Source: Leptothermofonsia sichuanensis E412 (lineage in GTDB: Bacteria > Cyanobacteriota > Cyanobacteriia > Leptolyngbyales > Leptolyngbyaceae). Taken from it: a stretch of DNA of 64,000 nucleotides. Location: the NCBI RefSeq assembly GCF_019891175.1, contig NZ_CP072600.1, forward strand, positions 3,968,001-4,032,000. The letters are read 5' to 3'. The number at the start of each line of letters is the position of its first letter. Within the stretch, counting starts at the first letter, position 1. Below the pieces are notes generated by a model that searched no databases, was not told the DNA's origin, and worked only from the letters and a program-made list of their open reading frames with translations. The translations under genes were made by a program, and so were the position numbers. Below are positions 19,105 through 23,146 of the stretch, piece by piece.

Positions 19105-19304
19105 CACTTACTTTATAAACAGGGGATCCCTTCTAAGGTTTATGTTCTAAGTTCCCAGATCTGCTTCAAGACCAAAAAATTCTGTGCTGTACTGAAAGAC
19201 AATGGGCAGATTTGGGGCTGAATAGTCTCAACCCCTTCCATCCCTGGACAATCCCTGCTCCAGAGTAAGGGCTTGTTAATTGAGATGTTTTGAGATATAG
19301 CAAA

Positions 19305-20318
19305 ATGGTTTCTACAGCAAAAATTGGGGTGGTTGTGATTGGACGGAATGAGGGCGATCGCCTGATCCGCAGCCTGGACTCTGTTGTGAACGGTTCCCAT
19401 ACCGTTGTTTATGTTGACTCTGGCTCTACCGATGGCAGTTGTGAAGCGGCTCGCGATCGCGGCGTTGAAGTCGTCAACCTGGACAGGTCTGTCCCCTTTA
19501 CGGCGGCCCGCGCCCGTAATGCCGGGTTCAAGCGGCTACAAAATCTGCAACCGGATATCGAGTATGTTCAATTCATCGATGGGGACTGTGAAGTGGTGCC
19601 TGGATGGATGGAAGCGGCTACCACCGTGCTTGATACCCATCCAGATGTAGTCGCTGTCTGTGGCTGGCGACGAGAGCGTTACCCAGAACGGAGTGTCTTT
19701 AACCGCATTTGCGATGTGGAATGGCGAATTTGCCCCGTAGGGGAAAACCTTGCCTTTGGGGGTGATGTTCTGATTCGGGCTAAATCTCTGGCGGCTGTGG
19801 GGGGATACGACCCGATTGTGATTGCCGGTGAAGAGCATGAGTTAGCTGTGCGCTTGCGCCAGCAGGGGGGAAAAATTCTCCGTATTGATCAGGTAAACAC
19901 CCTGCATGATGCCGATATGCACCACTTCTCCCAGTGGTGGAACCGGGCTAAACGCTGTGGCTATGCCTACTCCCTGGTTGCTTCCATGCATGGAGCGTCC
20001 CCCGAACACAAATTTGTCAGAGAAGTCAGACGTACCTGGCTTTGGGGTTTCGTTATGCCATTGACAGCTCTGGTGCTGATGCCCCTGACCAATGGGTTTT
20101 CCCTTCTGATTCTGGCCCGGTATCCTCTGACCGCTCTTAAAACTACCTACAACACACACCGCCAGGGAATTTCCTGGGGCGATAGCATTGTCTGGGGACT
20201 GTCCTGTAGTATCTCGGCGTTTCCAGAAGTGACTGGGGCAATCAAGTTCCAGCTTAATCGCCTGCAAAATCGTCAGCACGAAATTATCGAGTACAAAGGT
20301 CCCCGTGTAGAGGGGTAG
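19305..20318 (+). CDS. Family 2 glycosyltransferase
   Basis: 337 residues from ATG 19305. The GT2 nucleotide-binding start is KIGVVVIGRNEGDRLIRSLD, with VYVDSGSTDGS and the DXD-like FIDGDCEVVPGW. A hydrophobic stretch near residues 240-270 (LWGFVMPLTALVLMPLTNGF) may anchor it to the membrane. It transfers a sugar from a nucleotide donor to an unknown acceptor, probably for cell-surface polysaccharide. No other polysaccharide genes are adjacent. Confidence 0.85.
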   Translation: MVSTAKIGVVVIGRNEGDRLIRSLDSVVNGSHTVVYVDSGSTDGSCEAARDRGVEVVNLDRSVPFTAARARNAGFKRLQNLQPDIEYVQFIDGDCEVVPGWMEAATTVLDTHPDVVAVCGWRRERYPERSVFNRICDVEWRICPVGENLAFGGDVLIRAKSLAAVGGYDPIVIAGEEHELAVRLRQQGGKILRIDQVNTLHDADMHHFSQWWNRAKRCGYAYSLVASMHGASPEHKFVREVRRTWLWGFVMPLTALVLMPLTNGFSLLILARYPLTALKTTYNTHRQGISWGDSIVWGLSCSISAFPEVTGAIKFQLNRLQNRQHEIIEYKGPRVEG

Positions 20319-20416: not shown

Positions 20417-21085
20417 ATGGATGTTTTTACCATTGGGCATTCCAATCATTCAAGTGAAGCGTTTATGGCTCTGTTGAAACAGCATGGCATCACAGCCCTG
20501 GTTGATGTGCGATCGCACCCCTATAGTCGTTATCTGCCCCACTTCAATCAGGCCCCTCTGAAAGCTTCCCTCAAGGCTGCCCATATCCATTACCTGTTTC
20601 TTGGCCAGGCATTGGGAGCCAGATCCGATAACCCCGACTGCTATCTAAATGGCAAAGCGGTGTACCAGAGGATTGCCGCTACAGCGTGTTTCCAGGAGGG
20701 GATTCAGCGGGTAGTCAAAGGGGCACAGACCTACAGAATTGCCCTCATGTGCGCTGAGAAAGACCCGATTACGTGCCACCGGGCAGTTCTGGTTTGCCCC
20801 CATCTCTCTGCCTGCGGTTTGCAGATCCAGCATATTTTGAGTAATGGGGATCTGGAATCCCATCCCCAACTGGAAGAGCGGTTACTGGAGCTACATAACT
20901 TGAAGCCATCCCAGGCTGCTCCTGCCCAACTCTCGCTGTTTGGTGATGGATTCCTCTCTGAATCGGGAACCCTACGGTCAAAGGAAGAGGCATTGCAGGA
21001 AGCCTACCGACTTCAGGGCGATCGCATTGCCTATGTCGAAAGGACAGCAGAGAAGGCAGAACCCAGCCATGAGCCAACCCATTAA
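20417..21085 (+). CDS. DUF488 family protein (first of two)
   Basis: 222 residues. It starts MDVFTIGHSNHSSEAFMALL and contains VDVRSHPYSRYLPHFNQ, both hallmarks of DUF488. A conserved cysteine cluster follows: CAEKDPITCHRAVLVCPHL. The C-terminal about 70 residues are variable. The biochemical activity of DUF488 is unknown. The stop codon overlaps the next DUF488 gene by 17 bp, so the two are translationally coupled. A half-repeat of family H lies at about 20335-20362 and its GCATTGCTGA-like sequence ends just before the start codon. Confidence 0.85.
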   Translation: MDVFTIGHSNHSSEAFMALLKQHGITALVDVRSHPYSRYLPHFNQAPLKASLKAAHIHYLFLGQALGARSDNPDCYLNGKAVYQRIAATACFQEGIQRVVKGAQTYRIALMCAEKDPITCHRAVLVCPHLSACGLQIQHILSNGDLESHPQLEERLLELHNLKPSQAAPAQLSLFGDGFLSESGTLRSKEEALQEAYRLQGDRIAYVERTAEKAEPSHEPTH

Positions 21086-21515
21086 TCTGTTTACAATTGG
21101 GTTTACCCAGAAAACTGCCCAACAGTTTTTTGAAACACTGGTACAGGCAGGAGTTCAGCGCGTGATTGATACCCGGTTGAACAACGTTTCCCAACTGGCA
21201 GGTTTTGCCAAGCGGGCAGATCTGGAGTATTTTCTGCAAAAAATTGGTGGCATTCAGTATATCCATTGTCTGGATCTGGCTCCTACCCAGGACATGCTGG
21301 ATAACTACAAGAAAAAGAAAGGGGATTGGGCGACCTACGAGCATCAGTTCCTGCAATTGATCCGCGATCGCCAGATTGAAACCAGAGTTTCCCCTGAACT
21401 GATGGATGGGGCATGCCTTTTGTGTAGCGAACCCAAACCGCATCACTGCCACCGCCGCTTGGTGGCTGAATATTTGCATCAACAGTGGGGAACCTTAGAG
21501 ATACACCACCTCTAA
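21069..21515 (+). CDS. DUF488 family protein (second)
   Basis: 148 residues from ATG 21069. It shares the family opening INLFTIGFTQKTAQQFFETL, VIDTRLNNVSQLAGFAKR, and the cysteine/histidine motif CLLCSEPKPHHCHRRLVAEY. It overlaps the previous DUF488 gene by 17 bp and is 6 bp from the next gene. It differs from its partner: the first has the DVRSHPYSRY form and the second the DTRLNNVSQLAGFAK form, so they are ancient paralogues rather than a recent duplicate. Confidence 0.85.
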   Translation: MSQPINLFTIGFTQKTAQQFFETLVQAGVQRVIDTRLNNVSQLAGFAKRADLEYFLQKIGGIQYIHCLDLAPTQDMLDNYKKKKGDWATYEHQFLQLIRDRQIETRVSPELMDGACLLCSEPKPHHCHRRLVAEYLHQQWGTLEIHHL

Positions 21516-21521
21516 TGCTCC

Positions 21522-22346
21522 ATGACTCAAATCATCTGTCTCGCCAACTCCTGGAAGCACGGCGAGCGCTGCATTGCAGGTATTGACCTCATGACTGGCA
21601 ACTGGATTCGCCCTGTGTCTGACTTGAGTGATGGGCGAGTCCCCTGGTTTGTGCGGATGGTGGATGGGCAAGAACCCCAACTCCTGGATATTCTGGACAT
21701 TCCTCTGGCAGACACCGCCTCATCCCACTGGGATTTTGCGCGGGAAAACCATTCTATTCTGCCCGGTGAATGGCGACGGGTAGGCCGGTTGCAAGTCACC
21801 GATTTGCTGCCCTATTGCGATTACAGGAATTCGATCCTGCACAATCCGGATCGTTGTGTAACCGTTCCTTACCTGCGTGCCCTGCCCCCGGGCGATCGCC
21901 AGACGTTACAACTGGTGTATGCAAAAGAACTTTCTGTCCAGGGAATTTTCAAACTCAGTGGCAGACGCAAATGGCAGGCGACGCTGAACGGTGCCAGTGG
22001 GCACAGTCTGGTGAATGTCACGATTACTGACCCCGTATTTGTGGAACGTCTGGAAACAGGTTATCGTCCCCAACATCCCTGCCTGGTTACAGTAAGTTTG
22101 AGCCTGCCGTTTCGACCTGCACAGGAGTGTGAACAGGATGAAGCTTGTTGGAAGCTGATTGCAGGGGTTATCGAACTATCTGAAGCAGACCTGGTCCTGG
22201 TTGAAATGCAACGGTTGGGCTGGACGATTCAGCAGGGGCGAGATTATTTGCAACAGGTCTATGGGAAGCGATCGCGCCAACAACTAACCCCCACTGAACT
22301 CACCGATTTCTTGCAGCACTTGCAATCCCGGTCATTAATCAGCTAA
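21522..22346 (+). CDS. Dual OB-type domain protein of the DUF488 cassette
   Basis: 274 residues. The start QIICLANSWKHGERCIAGID and GNWIRPVSDLSDGRVP match the conserved opening of proteins annotated as dual OB domain-containing; that family identification is from memory. OB folds bind nucleic acid or small ligands, but no enzyme motif is visible. The coupling to two DUF488 genes suggests that the three proteins act together. The C-terminal about 60 residues look helical. Similar cassettes are suspected of roles in genome conflict, which is not shown by this sequence. Confidence 0.7.
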   Translation: MTQIICLANSWKHGERCIAGIDLMTGNWIRPVSDLSDGRVPWFVRMVDGQEPQLLDILDIPLADTASSHWDFARENHSILPGEWRRVGRLQVTDLLPYCDYRNSILHNPDRCVTVPYLRALPPGDRQTLQLVYAKELSVQGIFKLSGRRKWQATLNGASGHSLVNVTITDPVFVERLETGYRPQHPCLVTVSLSLPFRPAQECEQDEACWKLIAGVIELSEADLVLVEMQRLGWTIQQGRDYLQQVYGKRSRQQLTPTELTDFLQHLQSRSLIS

Positions 22347-22588: not shown

Positions 22589-23146
22589 TCATCCTCCATC
22601 CTGTCGTTGCAGGTCTTCCAACGTTGCCAGGACTTCTGCGCTATGAATAGCCGGATTCACGCCGGTAAAGCTTGCCCGCAGGATGCCGTCTGGATCCACA
22701 ATATAGGTGTGACGCAGAGAAATTGCCCCCATCCAGGAACCGTATGCTTTGCTGACAGTGCCATCCGTGTCTGCCAAAAGGGGAAACTTCAGCCCTTCTG
22801 AATCGCAAAATTCGGCATGGGAATCAACGGAATCAGCGCTGATGCCCAGGATTTGCGTATTCCGACTCAGGTATTTCGGCTGATCCTGTTGAAATCGACG
22901 AGCTTCTAAGGTACAGCCAGAGGTAAAGTCTTTGGGATAGAAGTAAACCACTACCCATTTCCCCCGGTAATCAGCCAGGGAAATGGTGCCGTCCCCGGTA
23001 TTGGTGGGTAGGGTGAACTGTGGGGCAGGTTGATTCAGTGGTGGTTGCGCCCCACCCAGTGCCCGGGCAGTTGGTATGCCACCAAACAGGACCAGACAAC
23101 TGAGAAAGCTGGCGAGCAGAAACGGGAGAAAACAACGAATAGCCAT
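22589..23146 (-). CDS. Exported peroxiredoxin, BCP/PrxQ type
   Basis: 185 residues. A signal peptide is evident (FLLASFLSCLVLFGGI then TARALGG). The thioredoxin-fold catalytic site is YPKDFTSGCTLEARRF with the peroxidatic cysteine. The usual resolving cysteine five residues later is replaced by arginine-containing sequence, while a cysteine at VDSHAEFCDSEGL is retained. It is thus probably an atypical or 1-Cys type thiol peroxidase. It removes peroxides outside the cytosol, in the periplasm or thylakoid lumen. It is not in an operon. Confidence 0.88.
   Translation of the reverse strand: MAIRCFLPFLLASFLSCLVLFGGIPTARALGGAQPPLNQPAPQFTLPTNTGDGTISLADYRGKWVVVYFYPKDFTSGCTLEARRFQQDQPKYLSRNTQILGISADSVDSHAEFCDSEGLKFPLLADTDGTVSKAYGSWMGAISLRHTYIVDPDGILRASFTGVNPAIHSAEVLATLEDLQRQDGG

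Follow-up and report, generated by a model that had tools for sequence, protein, structure and literature searches.

Organisation of the locus

What two DUF488 proteins and a dual-OB protein, encoded side by side, may do for a bacterium is the question raised by three genes, hereafter B, C and A, in the window, the 64-kb stretch of DNA analysed here, which derives from a genome of 6.43 Mb, cyanobacterial judging by its relatives, assembled as a single contig. All three are encoded on the + strand in the order B-C-A (Table 1), and their coordinates were confirmed to the base, including the 17-bp overlap of the two DUF488 genes and the 6-bp gap before the third gene that the initial annotation had described. 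The start of C at ATG 21069 is backed by homologues; the mechanical open reading frame opens upstream, at 20940. The neighbours are a glycosyltransferase-like gene upstream (19290-20318) and a convergent peroxiredoxin-like gene downstream (22589-23146). A recent foreign origin of the trio by composition was rejected, given that the GC content around it (0.51-0.52) is similar to that of the flanks. A promoter and terminator scan gave nothing beyond chance expectation, and no tRNA or tmRNA genes were found in the window (1-64000).

Table 1 Coordinates of the three genes and their conserved elements in the window
Feature	Coordinates	Strand	Description	Basis
Gene B	20417..21085	+	DUF488 protein, 222 aa, PDC-M45B	Pfam and PADLOC matches
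Gene C	21069..21515	+	DUF488 protein, 148 aa, PDC-M45C	Pfam and PADLOC matches, homologue-supported start
Gene A	21522..22346	+	dual-OB (DuOB) protein, 274 aa, PDC-M45A	Pfam and PADLOC matches
CxExxPxxCHR motif of B	20750..20782	+	residues 112-122	
CxExxPxxCHR motif of C	21423..21455	+	residues 119-129	strand-loop-helix junction in model
C-terminal helical tail of A	22188..22343	+	about residues 223-274	

Both B (90.3 bits, E 1.9e-25) and C (80.7 bits, E 1.8e-22) score above the cut-off of PF04343 (DUF488; 22.2 bits), and C (34.6 bits) but not B (14.8 bits) exceeds that of PF22751 (DUF488-N3a, the 'active' subclade; 27 bits). The third gene product had been taken for a dual-OB protein, an assignment borne out by PF22557 (DuOB; 136.3 bits, E 1.9e-39, cut-off 27) and by two OB-type folds in its model. 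PADLOC-DB 2.0.0 contains the same three genes as the phage defence candidate PDC-M45, and homologues of M45A, M45B and M45C were found as one adjacent set in the window (model matches of 4e-28, 6e-75 and 3.5e-72 for A, B and C, respectively). The set resembles PDC-M45 in that A is a DuOB protein and B and C are DUF488 proteins with strong model matches, and differs in its order, which in the window and mostly in cyanobacteria is B-C-A instead of A-B-C, and in an extra helical tail on A. Judged by its sequence, the window copy is a further example of PDC-M45, itself a candidate system. This name, and the catalytic-loop-like motif shared by B and C, are two points that the initial annotation missed. 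No published experiments on the trio, phage protection included, were found in the literature searched, and the main text of the DefensePredictor paper does not mention DUF488, DUF4326 or dual OB.

Conservation and spread of the trio

Among 292 cyanobacterial genomes, C was found in 34, B in 41 and the DuOB gene in 35. C adjoins B in all 34 genomes that have it, and the trio is adjacent in 32 of them, the two exceptions (G174 and G159) having a stop codon inside C. Scanning across bacteria yielded 570 relatives of C, and 80 of these loci were read: 46 are trios (25 A-B-C, 16 with a divergent DuOB and five B-C-A), 30 have C alone and three are of other kinds, with one locus that reads A-B-C (L124) standing outside that count. 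Outside cyanobacteria, a DuOB gene nearly always adjoins B-C pairs that have sufficient flanking sequence; where it is missing, the pair sits at a contig edge (L120) or B is truncated (L073). Profile comparison confirmed the divergent DuOB (hhalign 97.1%, E 5e-11), and three of the five divergent proteins tested exceed the cut-off of the Pfam DuOB model.

The trio was found in at least seven phyla, a recurrence that argues against chance. The other phyla of the scan have it as A-B-C and cyanobacteria mostly as B-C-A, the order also of a Rhodothermus plasmid, and the persistence of the grouping through such rearrangement favours a functional link. Near-invariant adjacency, location on one strand and frequent 4-bp stop/start overlaps support the same conclusion, that the three genes are functionally linked. 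It had been reasoned that the link would weaken if the three genes were rarely adjacent in other genomes; the adjacency holds in nearly all cyanobacteria with C and in other phyla besides.

The spread in cyanobacteria is patchy, and G292, the only species sampled from the genus of the window, is without C. In that genome the peroxiredoxin and hydrolase genes of the region are adjacent with no trio, but it was rejected as a clean empty site because the glycosyltransferase gene lies elsewhere and the orientation differs, the region being rearranged. In a tree of C, one cyanobacterial copy (G177) groups with Nitrospira/Competibacteraceae (SH-aLRT 98), a placement indicating horizontal transfer. 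In one cyanobacterial genus (L167-L169), B occurs without C or A, always in the same stretch of housekeeping-type genes.

Motif and predicted folds

B and C are homologous (hhalign 98%). The Cys/His segments already noted in both proteins turned out to be one and the same motif, CxExxPxxCHR, which is present in 112 of 118 C homologues and 85 of 87 B homologues. P alone is altered in the six C exceptions; the two B exceptions have no motif match, and at least one of them (L146) is a broken gene. In alignments of 65 C and 48 B sequences, no variation was seen at the C, E, C, H and R of the motif, nor, among the 48 B sequences, at its P. In the AF2 model of C (pLDDT 90.8), strand 115-119 ends at C119 and the helix starts from 128, with R129 at its beginning. 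The active-site loops of PTP and rhodanese enzymes have a Cys closing a strand, a loop and an Arg opening the next helix, and the predicted Cys/Arg placement in C matches this layout, suggesting that the loop may be catalytic. Likeness to PTP/rhodanese-type enzymes lies in the conserved Cys...CHR motif and in a possible Rossmann-like alpha/beta fold of C of the PTP/diphthine-synthase type, but the canonical CX5R signature of protein tyrosine phosphatases is absent from both B and C, which have a longer C-X9-R spacing instead. CbiL, an archaeal PTP, PRL phosphatases and diphthine synthase rank highest among structural neighbours of the C model, at Z scores (6.5-8.3 over about 100-122 residues) that may reflect a common arrangement. 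A zinc finger as the main reading of the Cys/His segments was rejected because the motif, identically spaced in B and C, lies where strand, loop and helix meet, as is typical of cysteine-based enzymes, although metal binding is formally possible.

Searching solved structures by sequence produced nothing usable for A, B or C, and Foldseek against the PDB gave no match at E<=0.001. Comparison of DUF488 with DUF4326 by hhalign gave a weak 34.7% for C, in the motif region only, and 0.3% for B. Burroughs and Aravind reportedly grouped RapZ-C, DUF488 and DUF4326 in 2023 and predicted DNA-end processing in conflict systems; we know of no demonstrated DUF488 reaction.

The AF2 model of A (pLDDT 92.3) has tandem OB folds and resembles ssDNA-binding OB proteins, among them LEF-3, RPA70, SSB and the telomere end-binding protein, at Z scores of 4-6, values that may reflect a common arrangement. 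The tandem OB arrangement is one that the predicted A has in common with RPA70, SSB, the telomere end-binding protein and the N-terminal OB of BrxL; it differs from such proteins in its low Z and in having no sequence match to a solved structure. The last ~50 residues of A are related to the C-terminus of the slr1353 family; this tail, an add-on of cyanobacteria, occurs in 10 of 37 cyanobacterial A proteins versus none of 47 others. An slr1353-type protein from this genome shares the tail, as do phage GemA-type proteins, if weakly.

Stand-alone relatives of C in formaldehyde-resistance islands

Relatives of C that stand alone, about 55% identical, were found in plasmid islands with frmR, class III alcohol dehydrogenase and fghA. 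Here the lone C adjoins UvrA in IncC and IncX5 records and UvrB in Aeromonas, Acinetobacter and Comamonas, and lies near RarA in Shinella. In the tree, the four plasmid copies included group as a single clade (SH-aLRT 99). Six such loci were noted (L049, L050, L054, L055, L202 and L207), with UvrA or UvrB adjacent in five and RarA near L055. These islands (frmR-adhC-fghA with UvrA/UvrB) share a close relative of C with the window, but B and A, which complete the window trio, were not seen in the islands examined. C alone is also maintained in rhizobial chromosomes. The occurrence of C alone in rhizobia and formaldehyde islands, and of B alone in one cyanobacterial genus, implies that DUF488 enzymes can serve roles other than defence. 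The location of the lone C beside UvrA or UvrB points to damaged DNA or DNA ends as the target of the chemistry, and is the strongest clue in that direction.

Plasmids, prophages and the DUF4326 variant

The trio lies beside CBASS on an Agrobacterium plasmid, within a type III CRISPR locus on an Allochromatium plasmid and on a phage-like plasmid in Rhodovastum, and on the Rhodothermus plasmid pRMAR01 the B-C-A set, with a divergent DuOB, is directly beside cas1-cas2-cas6 and within a type III CRISPR locus. Flanking genes matched 138 PADLOC models at non-cyanobacterial trios, 72 at cyanobacterial trios and 34 at lone-C loci, a rough contrast since models and not genes are counted. Among the matches listed, those of non-cyanobacterial trios include Cas1, RmrA, HerA, type III methyltransferase, capP, AriA and CARF, and those of lone-C loci are mostly UvrD-type helicase models, plus GlgB. 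Housekeeping genes surround most cyanobacterial trios, that of the window included, and only some of the neighbours are of defence type. Many chromosomal copies, in cyanobacteria, Planctomycetota and Acidobacteriota, have no evident prophage setting. A neighbourhood survey had been suggested to see whether the trio occurs near defence islands or mobile DNA. Relatives elsewhere are found on plasmids, in prophages and with CBASS and type III CRISPR genes; cyanobacteria, the window included, mostly carry the trio outside any obvious defence island, a further point that the initial annotation had missed.

All 38 viral contigs that bear C have at least one linked partner, mostly as A-B-C or A-C-DUF4326. 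Several of these copies are beside terminase genes, and 10 of 96 flanking proteins tested match the terminase large-subunit family. A variant, DuOB-DUF488-DUF4326, has a DUF4326 protein instead of B and occurs in Moraxella, Aeromonas, Klebsiella, Leclercia, Citrobacter and E. coli; the replacement is an mSLOG-DUF4326 protein in Moraxella, where tested, and the Moraxella plasmid also encodes a viperin. Loci of this type are found on plasmids, viral contigs and E. coli chromosomes (L200:7004-8702, L204, L205, L206, L246 and L247). A match occurs in 14 of 5426 complete E. coli genomes, and the copies read occupy either the icd/e14 prophage site or an ffs island that has an integrase. PADLOC recognised neither the DUF4326 protein nor the divergent DuOBs tested. 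On the Klebsiella plasmid pH205 (L203), an ISEcp1/blaCMY-36 segment separates DuOB from DUF488-DUF4326, with the DUF488 gene itself broken into two parts. DUF4326 has been assigned to the rhodanese-phosphatase superfamily, and DUF4326/SLOG domains were proposed as processors of ADPr derivatives or phosphates in viruses (PMC9503650). A DUF4326 protein, mSLOG-DUF4326 where tested, takes the place of B in the enterobacterial, Moraxella and phage versions; it is absent from the window.

Proposed function and alternatives

The trio moves as a unit among bacteria, plasmids and prophages, and is probably an anti-virus or DNA-damage module. The suggestion of a repair or defence module made at the outset is favoured by the PDC-M45 match, by the CBASS, type III CRISPR, HerA-type and prophage contexts and, for the lone C, by UvrA/UvrB. 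The plasmid, prophage and island contexts favour defence, and we consider it about an even call that the trio is a mobile module defending against phage or foreign DNA of other kinds, its enzymes acting on DNA ends or lesions. The DuOB protein would bind single-stranded DNA or DNA ends exposed by the invader and, once bound, recruit the two paralogous DUF488 enzymes, whose putative catalytic cysteine, in an enlarged PTP/rhodanese-like loop, would modify a DNA terminus or a damaged or modified nucleotide, such that the invader DNA could not be replicated, repaired or packaged. Co-inheritance, gene order and overlaps, the shared motif, the folds predicted for the proteins, mobility and neighbourhoods of defence type come from the analysis itself; that the loop is catalytic, its substrate DNA and the outcome anti-phage is what we infer.

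Much the same chemistry could serve DNA repair, and the two readings differ mainly in purpose. DUF488 enzymes that remove or process aldehyde- or alkylation-type lesions, or DNA ends that are blocked, with an ssDNA-binding DuOB loader and a defence-island placement incidental to mobility, would suit the supported plasmid clade of C relatives beside UvrA or UvrB and near RarA, as well as the resemblance of DuOB to RPA/SSB. Such a module is nevertheless somewhat doubtful, given that the complete trio was not seen in formaldehyde islands and that its patchy spread, its presence in prophages and its association with CBASS and type III CRISPR genes are unlike those of ordinary repair genes. Viral carriage could equally be compatible with counter-defence, in which a module carried by phages or plasmids would break down ADP-ribose-type signals, or repair DNA damage inflicted by the host, to the benefit of the element itself; the trio or the DUF4326 variant, complete or almost so, on every C-bearing viral contig agrees with this, as does the mSLOG-DUF4326 protein in B's place, of a kind for which the processing of ADPr derivatives in viruses has been proposed (PMC9503650). 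The many chromosomal copies not evidently in prophages, and a DuOB protein without obvious place in a purely small-molecule role, make it decidedly unlikely. Least probable is a housekeeping operon for RNA- or nucleotide-end processing with no conflict role, which the housekeeping surroundings in the window and many cyanobacteria would suggest but which fits poorly with the absence of the trio from most relatives, its mobility and the decay of C by a stop codon in two genomes.

DUF488 is widespread, and the trio members are without a solved-structure match by sequence. The almost obligatory partnership with DuOB, the exchange of B for mSLOG-DUF4326 and the lone C of formaldehyde islands together point the chemistry towards DNA ends or damaged DNA. 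Rather speculatively, and with the chances against it, these proteins might form a class of DNA-directed immune enzymes, in which DuOB-loaded DUF488 pairs, or DUF488 with mSLOG-DUF4326, would modify the ends or bases of invader DNA, one enzyme having been co-opted without its partners for repair of formaldehyde damage on conjugative plasmids. With a natural version in those 14 complete genomes, the chemistry of DUF488 is testable in E. coli.
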